The translations under genes and the position numbers were made by a program. A DNA stretch of 64,000 nt from Senegalimassilia faecalis (GTDB lineage: Bacteria > Actinomycetota > Coriobacteriia > Coriobacteriales > Eggerthellaceae), in contig NZ_SDPW01000001.1 of the NCBI RefSeq assembly GCF_004135645.1, positions 620,001-684,000 on the forward strand, given 5' to 3'. The notes beneath the pieces are model-generated. The model was not told the origin of the DNA, made no database searches, and worked only from the letters and a program-made list of their open reading frames with translations. Each line of letters starts with the position of its first letter. The first letter of the stretch is position 1. This document shows, one piece after another, positions 3,891 through 54,037 of this stretch.

Positions 3891-3908
3891 GCCTAACCAA
3901 GATATCTG

Positions 3909-4087
3909 TTCAGGGCGAGGTGCAATTCCTCACTGGCGGTAACGCGAAGCGCTCAGGCGCCACCGCGAAGTCCGCAACCCGAGCAGGTTGCGCAAACGCC
4001 GTTTCGGCGGCGGGTTGCAACTTGCTTGGCTGATCTGGTGAAAGTCCAGGACCAACGGTTACAGTCCGGATGGAAGAACAGGAGCAC
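3909..4087 (+). promoter_or_regulatory. FMN riboswitch (RFN element)
   Basis: The conserved RFN blocks occur in order: TTCAGGGCGAGGTGCAATTC, CACTGGCGGTAA, AGTCCGC, then CTGGTGAAAGTCCAGGACC, GGTTACAGTCCGGATG and GAAGAACAGGAGC. A variable arm at about 3975-4020 forms the extra helix. It is followed by a terminator at 4193-4220 and then ribD. FMN binding should favour the terminator and lower riboflavin synthesis. Confidence 0.95.
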
Positions 4088-10065: not shown

Positions 10066-10566
10066 CTACCTCTTCCACAAGCCCGTCTTGCCGCCGTCTT
10101 TCAGCAGCAGGCGCACGTCCATGATCTCCATGCCGCGGTCAACCGCTTTGCACATATCGTAAATGGTCAGGCACGCCACGCTTGCCGCGGTCAGCGCCTC
10201 CATCTCGATGCCCGTTTTGCCCGTGACGCCCGTGGTGGTGGTCACGTGGATGCCCACGCGGCCGTCCTCGCGCTGGCCTTCGTGCACCGGCTCGCACTCC
10301 ACCTTCGCCTTCGTGATGTTCAGCGGATGGCACATGGGAATCAGCGTGCTCGTTTGCTTTGCGGCCATCACGCCCGCCACGCGCGCGCACGCCAGCACGT
10401 CGCCCTTCGCCGCTTTGCCCTCGACGATCAGCGCCAACGTGTCGGGATGCATGCTGATGAAGCCCTCGGCCACGGCCACGCGCTTCGTGATGTCCTTATC
10501 GGACACGTCCACCATGCGCACGTCGCCCTTCTCGTCGATATGCGTCAAATGCTGCTGCTCAGTCAT
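10066..10566 (-). CDS. moaC: cyclic pyranopterin monophosphate synthase
   Basis: Converts the MoaA product (3',8-cyclo-GTP) to cyclic pyranopterin monophosphate, the first stable intermediate of molybdenum cofactor synthesis. The 166-residue product has the MoaC blocks IPMCHPL (76-82), [15 protein letters not shown] and the C-terminal [12 protein letters not shown]...KDGGKTG. The ATG at 10566 follows AGGAGAAC. The open frame continues upstream through the repeat at 10667-10803, but that stretch is not MoaC. Downstream of moaA and upstream of the lipid kinase. Confidence 0.95.
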
Positions 10567-10629: not shown

Positions 10630-10659
10630 TGGGACAAAGGGACTGTTCCCTTTGTCCCA
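10630..10659. repeat. GGGACAAAGGGAC palindrome, copy A
   Basis: A 13-bp perfect stem (10630-10642 with 10647-10659) and a CTGT loop. The same hairpin recurs at 42062-42096 and 54005-54037, each time between genes. Confidence 0.75.
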
Positions 10660-10666
10660 AAGAACA

Positions 10667-10803
10667 TCAGGGACGCCACCAAAGTCAGCGAGGGCGCCTG
10701 TGGTGCGTCGTATTCGTGGGAACGTGAAGGCGAAGCGTACTTTGGTACGCGAGTTTTCAGGTTCGCGCAAAGACGGCGTGCCACGGGCGGCTGCAGCGTC
10801 GAG
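10667..10803. repeat. dispersed palindromic element, intergenic copy
   Basis: About 137 bp in the moaA-moaC gap that align with 40591-40725 inside the flavin-reductase gene. Nearly identical blocks are GAGGGCGCCTGTGG, the central GCGTACTTTGGTACGC palindrome and the far end. Read on the minus strand, this copy has an open frame encoding residues similar to those inserted in the other gene (RTKVR...TGALAD against RTEVR...TGALTD). Confidence 0.7.
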
Positions 10804-10808
10804 TAAAT

Positions 10809-10830
10809 CCGTTTGCCGACAGGCAAACGG
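10809..10830 (-). terminator. hairpin after moaA
   Basis: A 9-bp stem (CCGTTTGCC with GGCAAACGG) just past the moaA stop codon. Only a weak T stretch follows on the minus strand, so it may terminate only partially and let moaC be co-transcribed. Confidence 0.45.
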
Positions 10831-10836
10831 AACCGC

Positions 10837-11853
10837 TTAGCCGCCGATTTGGCTCATGCGGCGTTCCGTGCCGGTGATGTCGTCGTGGTCGTCGGGCTTT
10901 GCGCCTAGCGCCAGGCGGAACACGGCGGCCAGGTCCTGCTCGATTTCCGCTTCGGACTTTCCGCTGCGCAGCACGCTGCGCACGTCGTATTCGCGGTCGC
11001 TGAACAAACACGGACGCAGCTTGCCGTCGGCCGTTAGGCGCATACGGTTGCATTCCCCGCAGAAATGCCTGCTCATGGGGCTGATGAACCCAACCGTGCC
11101 CTTTGCACCGGGGAACTCGAAATAGCGCGCCGGGCCCCAACCCAGCGGCTGATGCTGCCCGGCCGGCACCAGCTCGGGCAGTCCTTCGGCACGGGCGGCC
11201 TTGTTGATGCGCTCGTACAGCTCTTCGCACGAGATAACGTCGTCGGGGCCCCAACCGCAACCGTCCGAACCCGAGCTTTCGCCCACGGGCATATACTCGA
11301 TGAAGCGCACATGCAGCGGGCGATCGATGGACAGCTTTGCGAATGCCAAATAGTCCTGATTCAGCTGGCGCACGGCCACGGCGTTGATTTTCACGGGGTT
11401 GAAGCCCGCCGCAAGCGCCGCGTCGATGCCGTCAAGCGCCTCTTGCAGCTGCCCGCGCCGCGTGATGAAGTGGAACTGCTCGGCGTCAAGCGTGTCCAGC
11501 GAGATGTTCACGCGCGAAAGCCCCGCCTCGCGCAGCTGGTCGGCCATGCGCGGCAGCAGCACGCCGTTCGTGGTCAGCGAGATATTCTTGATGCCCGGCG
11601 TTTCGTTGATGTCGCGCACCAGGTCAACCACGCCTTTGCGCACCAGCGGCTCGCCGCCGGTCAGGCGCACGCTGCGGATGCCCAGCTTCGCGAACGCGCG
11701 CACCACCTGCGCAATCTCCTCGATGCGCAAGATGTCGGTATGGCACATGGATTCCACGCCCTGCTCGGGCATGCAGTAGATGCAGCGGTAATTGCAGCGG
11801 TCCGTCAGCGATATGCGCAGATAATCGATGGTGCGACCGTGTCCGTCCTTCAT
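10837..11853 (-). CDS. moaA: GTP 3',8-cyclase (molybdenum cofactor biosynthesis)
   Basis: A radical SAM enzyme that rearranges GTP to 3',8-cyclo-GTP, the first step of molybdopterin synthesis. The N-terminal cluster is C20-X3-C24-X2-C27 in DRCNYRCIYC. GGEPL binds SAM. The second, substrate-binding cluster uses C265, C268 and C282. The conserved C-terminal Gly-Gly is present. I chose ATG 11853 because AGAGGGGA sits correctly before it, whereas the ATG at 11868 overlaps that site. Length 338 is normal. It is followed by moaC and next to the molybdate transporter genes. Confidence 0.96.
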   Translation of the reverse strand: MKDGHGRTIDYLRISLTDRCNYRCIYCMPEQGVESMCHTDILRIEEIAQVVRAFAKLGIRSVRLTGGEPLVRKGVVDLVRDINETPGIKNISLTTNGVLLPRMADQLREAGLSRVNISLDTLDAEQFHFITRRGQLQEALDGIDAALAAGFNPVKINAVAVRQLNQDYLAFAKLSIDRPLHVRFIEYMPVGESSGSDGCGWGPDDVISCEELYERINKAARAEGLPELVPAGQHQPLGWGPARYFEFPGAKGTVGFISPMSRHFCGECNRMRLTADGKLRPCLFSDREYDVRSVLRSGKSEAEIEQDLAAVFRLALGAKPDDHDDITGTERRMSQIGG

Positions 11854-12062
11854 GAAATCCCCTCTCATTTCGAGCCCTCAGTGTACCACGAGCGCGCCGA
11901 ATGCGCCCTTGAGGGTAACAGTTGCCACACGCTGCTCGCCGAATCAACGCAACCGCCCACCGAAGCGAACGGCGAAGCGCACGAATCGCCTCGCAAACAG
12001 GCCCTCAGCCGCCAACCACCGCCCAGACAACGCCAGCCGCATCCACGCCCACAGCCCACGAA

Positions 12063-38874: not shown

Positions 38875-39822
38875 TTATTGGCCAAGCTGTGCCTGCACCG
38901 CAAGCAACTCCTGCCCCAGCTGCACGAACTCCGCAAGCGACAGCGTTTCGCCGCGCCGTTTCGGGTCGATTGACGCGCGCTCGAACAGCTCCGGCAAATG
39001 CTGCGCCACCGCCCCACCTTGCGCGCCGCGGCCGGCAAAGTACGTTTTGCAAGAATTCGAAAGCGTTTTGCGGCGGCTGGCGAATGCCGCATCGGCCATA
39101 GTGCATGCCGCGCGCACCACATTTGCATCAAGCGGCGCTCCGGAAGCATCCGTCACGGGACGGCGATTCAGGCGGATAACGGCGCTGTCCACGCGCGGCG
39201 GCGGAAAGAAGTTGTTCGGACTGACGGGAAAACGGCCAGCGGGCTGCGCGTACAGGCGCAGCTTCACCGTGTACGCCCCGTAGTTCTTCGTGCCGGGCTC
39301 GGCCGCCATGCGGTCCGCCACCTCTTTTTGCACCATCACCGTTGCAGATTGAAGCGAATCAATGCGCTGGAAGTAGTCGAGCACCACTGTGGCTGCCACG
39401 GCATACGGCAGGTTCGCCACAAGCTTCGTTGGCATAGCCTGCGCATTCAGGTCGGAAAGCTGCAGGTCAAGCGCGTCTTTCTGGATAAGCGTGAACTTGT
39501 CCCACCACGGCGCCAGCGTTTCTTCGAGCACGGCCGGCAAATCGGCATCGCGCTCAATGGACGTGACATGCGCGGCGCCTTTCAGCAGCGCCATGGTAAG
39601 CGTGCCGATGCCCGGACCGATTTCCAACACGCGATCGGCGCCGTCAAGCTCGGCAAGCGCGACGATTTTCTGCACAATGGTATCGTTGACCAGGAAGTTT
39701 TGCCCCAGCGAATACTTTGCCGTCAGGCCGTGGTCGGCCAGCACCTCGCGCGTGGCGGCAAGACTCGCAAGTGTCGACAGGCTACCCACGGCGCTTCCCC
39801 TGCTTTCCGCCGCGGTTAGCAT
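38875..39822 (-). CDS. rsmA: 16S rRNA (adenine1518-N6/adenine1519-N6)-dimethyltransferase
   Basis: Dimethylates two adjacent adenosines near the 3' end of 16S rRNA (KsgA). A Rossmann methyltransferase: SLGQNFLVN (38-46), the SAM loop EIGPGIGT (67-74) and catalytic NLPYAVA. Length 315 is slightly long. The ATG at 39822 follows AAAGGCGG and overlaps the end of the upstream flavin-reductase gene by 41 bp, which implies translational coupling. Confidence 0.94.
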   Translation of the reverse strand: MLTAAESRGSAVGSLSTLASLAATREVLADHGLTAKYSLGQNFLVNDTIVQKIVALAELDGADRVLEIGPGIGTLTMALLKGAAHVTSIERDADLPAVLEETLAPWWDKFTLIQKDALDLQLSDLNAQAMPTKLVANLPYAVAATVVLDYFQRIDSLQSATVMVQKEVADRMAAEPGTKNYGAYTVKLRLYAQPAGRFPVSPNNFFPPPRVDSAVIRLNRRPVTDASGAPLDANVVRAACTMADAAFASRRKTLSNSCKTYFAGRGAQGGAVAQHLPELFERASIDPKRRGETLSLAEFVQLGQELLAVQAQLGQ

Positions 39823-40927
39823 TGCCGCCTTTCGCGCCGCCAGCCTTGCCGCCGCCTTTGCCCTTTTGCGCGTGCGGGTTGTCGTGTTTGGCCTGCTGCA
39901 CGCCGTTTGTGCCGCGCTTAGCGTTCGCGTGCTTCTTTTGCGCGGAGCGCTTGCGCCCGTGCTGAGCCGCATCAACGCGACGGCCTTCTTCGTCAAGCTT
40001 GATGACCTGGCGCTCGGAACCGTTTTCGCCCAGGTCAAGGCGCGCACGTTGCTGTCTGCGCGCAGCCTGGGAAGCAAGTTGGGCAGCGAAGTCGTTCTCC
40101 GCGAACGCTTCAGGCGCGCTTTCGGCGGGCGCAGCCGGCTGCTCGGCCGGCGCTTCCACAGGCTCGACCGCCGCCGCAGATGCGCCGCCGGCGAACGCGC
40201 GCACAACAGGGCCGCTGATGGGATATTCGTCCGCTTCGGCTACGATTTCGCCCGACTCGTCGATCTTGCCTACCCAGTCAAGCACGCGCTCCAGACGGAA
40301 GCCCGCCACAGCAGCTGCCGAGCGAACCGTGCCCACTAGCGGGTCGAAGCCGTGCGGATCGCCGCCCTCGCCCACCACGTGCAGCGTGCAGGGGCGCCGC
40401 CGCGCGCGCTGGCGCGTCCAGAAATACGGCTGGAACCGGTCGAGCACAGCCTTGAGCTGCGACGACGGGCCCGCAAAGTACACGGGCGCCACCACAATAA
40501 GCTCGTCGGCGTCCTCAAGCAGCGGATAGATGTCGTCCATGTCGTCGCGGATAACGCACCGACGATTGGCGTCGTTGGGGTCCCCATCACTCAGGGAATT
40601 GGGAGAGTCAGTGAGGGCGCCTGTGGCAGTGCAGCCCGTGGGGAAGACGGAGGCGCCGCGTACTTCGGTACGCAAGTCTCCGGCTTCGCCGCGGGATGCG
40701 CTGCCACAGGTGGCCGCAACGTCGGCATCTCCGCCGTTCGGCAGAACAGCGGAACCACGTTTGCACCAATCGCAAGCATTGCACCCGGCCACTTCCAGCG
40801 TGGACACCGGCGCCAGGAACACCTCGTCTTCCGGGCATTCTTCGATGCAGCTTTCGAACAGCAGGTCCGCCAGCGCGCCGCTGCGGCCCTCGACGCGAGG
40901 CGACCCGACAATAATCAGGCGTTTCAT
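39782..40927 (-). CDS. flavodoxin-fold NAD(P)H:FMN reductase-like protein with an in-frame repeat insertion and basic tail
   Basis: A 381-residue protein. The N-terminus (MKRLIIVGSPRVEGRSGAL) is the FMN loop of the NADPH-dependent FMN reductase/iron-sulfur flavoprotein group, with GCNACDWC typical of that group and VVAPVYFAGPSSQLKAVLDR after it. Between CDWCK and CVIRDD, where relatives have a few residues, about 60 residues are inserted; much of this is the palindromic element at 40591-40725. The C-terminal third is low complexity: Ala/Glu-rich, then a strongly basic Lys/Arg/Gly/Asn tail like an RNA-binding extension. The ATG at 40927 follows AAAGGAA and overlaps the tatD stop by 4 bp. It sits where rnmV is often found. 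Confidence 0.82.
   Translation of the reverse strand: MKRLIIVGSPRVEGRSGALADLLFESCIEECPEDEVFLAPVSTLEVAGCNACDWCKRGSAVLPNGGDADVAATCGSASRGEAGDLRTEVRGASVFPTGCTATGALTDSPNSLSDGDPNDANRRCVIRDDMDDIYPLLEDADELIVVAPVYFAGPSSQLKAVLDRFQPYFWTRQRARRRPCTLHVVGEGGDPHGFDPLVGTVRSAAAVAGFRLERVLDWVGKIDESGEIVAEADEYPISGPVVRAFAGGASAAAVEPVEAPAEQPAAPAESAPEAFAENDFAAQLASQAARRQQRARLDLGENGSERQVIKLDEEGRRVDAAQHGRKRSAQKKHANAKRGTNGVQQAKHDNPHAQKGKGGGKAGGAKGGNANRGGKQGKRRG
40591..40725. repeat. dispersed palindromic element, copy inside a coding sequence
   Basis: About 135 bp matching 10667-10803. CCTGTGGCAG (40620-40629) and CTGCCACAGG (40701-40710) are inverted around the central GCGTACTTCGGTACGC. The insertion keeps the reading frame of the host gene and adds about 45 codons without a stop. 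Confidence 0.7.
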
Positions 40928-42061: not shown

Positions 42062-42096
42062 AAATGGGACAAAGGGACTGTCCCCTTGTCCCATTT
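42062..42096. repeat. GGGACAAAGGGAC palindrome, copy B
   Basis: AAATGGGACAA pairs with TTGTCCCATTT, plus a GGG/CCC inner stem with a one-base bulge and the ACTGT loop. The same sequence occurs at 10630-10659 and 54005-54037. Confidence 0.75.
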
Positions 42097-54004: not shown

Positions 54005-54037
54005 AATGGGACAAAGGGACAGTCCTTTTGTCCCATT
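54005..54037. repeat. GGGACAAAGGGAC palindrome, copy C
   Basis: AATGGGACAAAGGGA (54005-54019) with its near-complement at 54023-54037. Same family as 10630-10659 and 42062-42096. Confidence 0.75.

Follow-up and report, generated by a model that had tools for sequence, protein, structure and literature searches.

A probably mobile two-hairpin repeat of Eggerthellaceae that lies behind stop codons and, in frame, inside genes

How did a long palindromic segment come to lie, in frame, within a gene for a flavin-reductase-like protein in Senegalimassilia faecalis? The locus belongs to a 64,000-nt stretch of that genome (NZ_SDPW01000001.1, 620,001-684,000, forward strand), which we call the window and whose numbering is used throughout; genomes are given G numbers and loci L numbers, with G000 being the host genome and G001 and G002 two species of its genus. 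Our analysis indicates that the segment is very probably a copy of a non-autonomous mobile repeat of ~167 bp, built of two hairpins, that has multiplied in the Eggerthellaceae and neighbouring families. The features at this locus are as follows.

39782 to 40927, minus strand: host gene, FMN_red / flavodoxin-fold protein of 381 aa including the insert (ORF; Pfam PF03358, E 1.4e-13)
40593 to 40758, minus strand: in-gene copy A of the repeat, read in frame 0 (covariance model match 1-166, 136.8 bits, E 1e-34)
40730 to 40754, minus strand: hairpin 1 of copy A, TTCCGCTGTTCTGCCGAACGGCGGA (sequence search, RNA fold, alignment)
40612 to 40718, minus strand: hairpin 2 of copy A, the large palindrome, with arms 40612-40652 and 40678-40718 (repeat search; fold z -6.05)

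By Pfam the host is a flavodoxin-like protein of the FMN_red family, and it bears a CxxCxxC motif at its N-terminus; no PDB relative of it was found. The earlier note had described an element of ~135 bp at 40591-40725, adding about 45 codons to the gene, with a second copy at 10667-10803 between moaA and moaC. A comparison inside the window confirms that the two are kin (70% over 120 bp, E ~1e-8). The second copy does lie directly behind the TAA of moaA (10837-10839, minus strand), with moaC downstream of it; Pfam confirms both genes. The unit itself is longer: a covariance model of 166 positions and two hairpins places it at 40593-40758 and 10670-10836, the first coordinates being too short because they left out a second, smaller hairpin on the stop-codon side, and the number of codons added is ~55. 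The same frame is open in both window copies, which encode related residues, as had been noticed (RTEVR/RTKVR, TGALTD/TGALAD). The features around the second copy are listed here.

10837 to 11877, minus strand: moaA (Pfam Radical_SAM and Mob_synth_C; stop codon 10837-10839; 11877 is the limit of the open frame)
10670 to 10836, minus strand: intergenic copy of the repeat, directly 3´ of the moaA stop codon (covariance model, 158.1 bits, E 2e-40)
10808 to 10832, minus strand: hairpin 1 of the intergenic copy, TTCCGTTTGCCTGTCGGCAAACGGA (sequence search, 0 mismatches)
10066 to 10566, minus strand: moaC, downstream of the intergenic copy (Pfam MoaC, E 8e-54)

That the unit is an inverted repeat that folds, as claimed earlier, is borne out at several levels. 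The arms of copy A are 41 nt long and 80% complementary, with an RNA fold z of -6.05 (-3.16 for the intergenic window copy). In an alignment of 19 copies, all oriented to one strand, hairpin 1 has 10 pairs and a loop that is mostly TGNC, and hairpin 2 has ~21 lower pairs beneath a variable top. Paired cells make up 92.9% in this alignment versus 75.3% in shuffles, and the covariation score is 0.475 versus 0.169 in shuffles (equalled in 0 of 500) and 0.05-0.09 when the structure is slid; changes on both sides were seen in 30 pairs in the covariation test, and 27 of 39 RNAalifold pairs show compensatory change. Hairpin 1 accompanies hairpin 2 in 21 of 22 cases, the remaining one being a truncated copy. 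Similarities between copies in hairpin 1 and in hairpin 2 are uncorrelated (r = 0.04; identity between L090 and L091, for example, is 98% for hairpin 2 and 65% for hairpin 1), and therefore the unit acts as a mosaic, like BIMEs.

The ends of the element (GTTYCG ... CCTG) are not inverted repeats of each other, and neither terminal inverted repeats nor a target-site duplication came to light in a non-systematic look at the compared copies and empty orthologous sites. Neither window copy matches Rfam 15 at the gathering threshold, and the sole hit, to a microRNA below threshold, was rejected as chance. Elsewhere in the window there is an FMN riboswitch (RF00050, 93 bits) at 3902-4085 on the plus strand. 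A longer variant of ~225 bp occurs at L110, L113 and L114 (G000:C1 1471062-1471287, 798263-798487 and 1268730-1268954, respectively); in L110 there is an additional hairpin inside the unit, GAACAAGCCACTGGCTTGTTC, and in L114 seemingly a related one. A second repeat, the perfect-looking palindrome TGGGACAAAGGGA..TCCCTTTGTCCCA, lies at 10630-10659, recurs near 42065-42077 and 54007-54024, and is often found just 3´ of element copies.

BLAST-type searches and the covariance model identified ~30 full-length copies in G000 (E 7e-46 to 1e-12), so the further genomic copies that the earlier note had anticipated are there. Numbers vary within the genus, with ~30 copies in G000, ~5 clear ones in G001 (8 at E 1e-6) and 37 in G002, and relatives inside one order carry from 1 to ~40 each. 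In a class-wide sample of 99 genomes the model matched 20 at E 1e-12, every one of them from a single order, and of the 56 genomes sampled from other orders of the class 0 had a copy; many members of the family also lack the element. Named carriers include Gordonibacter, Adlercreutzia, Eggerthella sinensis, Enteroscipio and Rubneribacter. Among loci retrieved by exact pattern, every one from Coriobacteriia carries the element, and those from Streptomyces, along with other chance loci, fail the model. Neither Rfam nor the papers searched contained an earlier description of the repeat, and literature searches on repeats of Eggerthella, Gordonibacter and Adlercreutzia yielded nothing relevant. 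The compared flanks of L102 and L103 (G000:C1 1783894 and 2739821) are identical, which suggests that a large segment is duplicated or that the assembly overlaps near the contig end.

Most copies sit immediately behind genes. In G000, 27 of 30 copies start at a stop codon, and the hairpin 1 stem, to which distances were measured, begins 0-5 nt 3´ of the stop and in a single orientation in 26 of the 26 intergenic copies counted (one of two identical copies, from a duplicated stretch, being left out). The corresponding figure for G002 is 24 of 30, and stop-adjacent placement is likewise seen in other genera. The stop codon is native, since element-free orthologues have theirs at the identical position, and we rejected on that ground the idea that a stop borne by the element causes the adjacency. 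A preference for TAA or TAG over TGA is not clear, as TGA makes up only 10-13% of stops in G000. We also rejected the idea that hairpin 1 was there beforehand as a terminator of the host, or is a repeat in its own right: it is tied to hairpin 2 save in the one truncated copy, has no U-tract, is not called as an intrinsic terminator, and at efp lies upstream of the gene's native terminator. (Here and below, efp, fabF, pdxS-pdxT and greA-lysS are putative names that we read from the sequence.)

Some genes run into hairpin 1 and stop in or just behind its loop, among them the putative fabF (G002 and G024), moaC (G002) and others ending at +17 to +19 nt; in these cases the element therefore supplies the stop codon. 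Loci L159, L201 and L218 are instances of such element-supplied stops for moaC and fabF. At L221 (carA) and L249 the element is read through in frame 0 as a C-terminal extension.

Comparison of congeneric species reveals gain or loss at individual sites. The element occupies the putative pdxS-pdxT site in G000, where G001 and G002 both have an overlapping stop-start; at the putative efp site it is present in G000 and G002 and absent from G001; and the putative greA-lysS-type site contains it in G000, is diverged in G001 and is empty in G002. G002 also contains remnants in which hairpin 1 is kept and most of hairpin 2 is lost. Given this variable presence between congeneric species, together with the decayed remnants, the family is mobile or was so recently. 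The earlier view of a mobile, folded, multi-copy unit is thus supported, with mobility inferred from the patterns of presence and absence.

The same data could be read in another way, in which the repeat is primarily a functional structured RNA at mRNA 3´ ends, serving termination or stability, that has been spread by gene conversion and kept by selection, with the in-gene copies as rare accidents. Strict stop adjacency and orientation, the strong covariation, and the independent variation of the hairpins (r = 0.04), as would be expected if both stems are retained for their structure, all speak for such a role, and hairpin 1 falls inside the 15-nt zone where E. coli REPs reduce translation (PMC12306157). 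Against it stand the gain and loss between congeneric species, the remnants, a copy number that ranges from 5 to 37 per genome within one genus and the absence from many family members, as well as the missing U-tract and terminator call at hairpin 1 and the native terminator farther downstream of the putative efp. We therefore regard this reading as possible but rather doubtful, and favor the mobile repeat.

The insert in FMN_red replaces part of a variable acidic linker of ~26 residues found in G001 and G002. Neither of the two findings that the earlier note had named as refuting its view was obtained, since further copies are present and orthologues without the segment exist: the linker is different in G001 and G002, and L077 and L079 have almost none. 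The comparison of species cannot date the insertion into FMN_red.

FMN_red is not the only host. Eight sense copies lie inside genes of six families (FMN_red, TauE twice, PcrA, PorC-PorD, TsaB-RimI twice and M18 peptidase), as identified by Pfam and NCBIfam. Three of these are in G000, namely FMN_red, a TauE/SafE permease whose copy is 92% identical to that in FMN_red over 125 bp, and PcrA, where the copy is truncated; the others are in PorC-PorD (L205), TsaB-RimI(-TsaD) (L223 and L354), an M18 aminopeptidase (L256) and the TauE of G022 (L277). Insert-free orthologues exist for each of the six families, with short variable linkers at the site, and the PcrA insert falls directly after residue 530 of 1pjr, at a junction of zero length. 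The linker of TauE (L107 and L277) and that of RimI (L223, L354 and the remnant L398) were each hit in different genera, which could reflect either insertion hot spots or old insertions lost elsewhere. The RimI linker of G024, judged by eye, resembles a decayed insert at the same site. There are also two antisense in-frame copies, L167 in a BadF/DUF2229 fusion gene (G002) and L248 in RecQ (G009), the latter preceding the zinc-binding CCSNC motif.

Frame conservation, which the earlier note had proposed to test across the family, holds for all 8 sense in-gene copies, which are read in frame 0. Intergenic copies are open in frame 0 in 52 of 128 cases, in frame 1 in 54 and in frame 2 in 34; taking the chance of frame 0 as 37%, the agreement of 8 copies has a probability of ~4e-4, a rough and non-blind estimate, as these copies were ascertained non-blind. 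A filter for harmless peptides could also produce a shared frame 0. A comparison of in-gene copies A and B over 43 codons gave 3 synonymous and 9 non-synonymous differences: the frame is kept, and purifying selection on the peptide is not visible.

These copies raise the question of whether a coding-specialised sub-lineage has moved from gene to gene, selected as harmless in-frame linkers. A and B form a sister pair (support 0.875; 84% across the full unit), each being nearer to the other than to any intergenic copy; a cluster of L117, L277 and L256 spans genera (0.945 / 0.735), and frame 0 is common to all sense copies. Yet L205 falls among intergenic copies and L223 beside a C-terminal read-through copy in the tree, frame 0 is open in ~40% of intergenic copies regardless, the peptide lacks purifying selection, and the cluster supports are modest, so that we consider such a sub-lineage unlikely. 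As to an ordinary variable protein linker with no kinship to the mobile repeat, length and sequence do vary among FMN_red orthologues, but the whole-length match to the repeat model (E 1e-34) and the 92% match to an in-gene copy in an unrelated gene refute this reading, to which we give almost no credence.

The likeness to the palindromic elements of Rickettsia drawn in the earlier note is supported as one of behavior rather than of sequence membership, most copies here being non-coding, stop-adjacent and two-hairpin. RPEs are 105-146 bp long (Ogata et al. 2000, as reviewed in PMC2229807), and in-frame insertion is known for them and for other MITE-like repeats with open frames (PMC2229807). 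Our family, a multi-copy palindrome found in frame in several unrelated conserved genes with insert-free orthologues, resembles RPEs in size class (~167 bp), in its long hairpin, in having both intergenic and in-frame intragenic copies, in its conserved host proteins and its insertion into variable parts of them, and in using one frame per family. It differs in belonging to another phylum, in its high GC, in its two hairpins and in its strict stop-codon placement. In outline, then, the in-gene repeat works like the Rickettsia elements, with translation of the insert predicted from the sequence.

Similarly, GTAG/CGTC-tagged REPs lie near gene 3´ ends, sometimes supply the stop and are sometimes intragenic (UvrD/REP helicase, recB) (PMC3733652). 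The repeat shares with REPs and BIMEs its 3´-end palindromes, stop supply, intragenic copies and mosaic combination of units. However, REPs are 20-40 bp, against ~167 bp and helices of 10 and ~21 pairs here, G000 has no RAYT/Y1 transposase, and the repeat's stop adjacency is tighter (0-5 nt); no REP tag was assigned to it, as the TAG/TAA at its left edge is the host's native stop and GACG lies between the hairpins, not at an end. MITEs with ORFs (ERIC, the 107-bp form of Correia/NEMIS, YPAL; PMC2229807) are likewise small and non-autonomous, with folded transcripts and in-frame fusions, whereas here no TIRs or target-site duplication were found where compared, and orientation to the upstream gene is fixed in stop-adjacent copies. 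The family thus shares behaviors with RPEs and REPs but not the size or RAYT linkage of REPs nor, where tested, the ends of MITEs, and it is found in a different phylum. Integron attC sites, finally, are imperfect palindromes directly behind stop codons, in which fold is conserved over sequence. Similar length, stop adjacency, imperfect palindromy and the keeping of fold rather than sequence unite the repeat with them; in contrast, its ends lack the RYYYAAC/GTTRRRY core pair, its copies are scattered behind ordinary genes of the chromosome and form no cassette arrays, and some are in-gene.

We suggest that the unit would move as a folded nucleic acid, mobilized in trans by some enzyme. It would land or survive preferentially just behind stop codons, becoming a 3´-UTR hairpin, and an arrival inside a gene would survive only with one frame open and an Ala/Ser/Gly/Thr-rich peptide that fits a surface loop; such copies would afterwards drift as tolerated linkers. 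A Y1/RAYT transposase was rejected as the mover, Y1_Tnp (PF01797) having 0 matches in the copy-carrying genomes G000, G009, G018, G021, G022 and G023, and we found no transposase or source element for the repeat; spread could alternatively occur by recombination between loci. E. coli REPs no more than 15 nt from stop codons reduce translation and are reported to stall ribosomes (PMC12306157), and by analogy a hairpin next to the stop may delay the ribosome at termination or shield the end of the mRNA. A more speculative proposal, to which we assign a distinctly low probability, is that the element recognizes translation termination or the mRNA 3´ end, in an RNA- or replication-coupled manner unlike that of REPs or MITEs, and has given off a gene-hopping in-frame coding linker.

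Palindromic repeats that encode protein are known chiefly from Rickettsia and a few Proteobacteria. Our analysis adds such a family in Coriobacteriia, including the cultured gut genera Gordonibacter, Eggerthella and Adlercreutzia, and the coexistence of stages by which a selfish hairpin enters genes: stop-adjacent, stop-supplying, C-terminal extension, internal linker and decayed remnant. The 0-5 nt precision relative to stop codons, for which we know of no transposition mechanism that would account, poses a mechanistic question that is directly testable. For the annotation of Eggerthellaceae proteins, our data imply that inserts of this kind are not domains.
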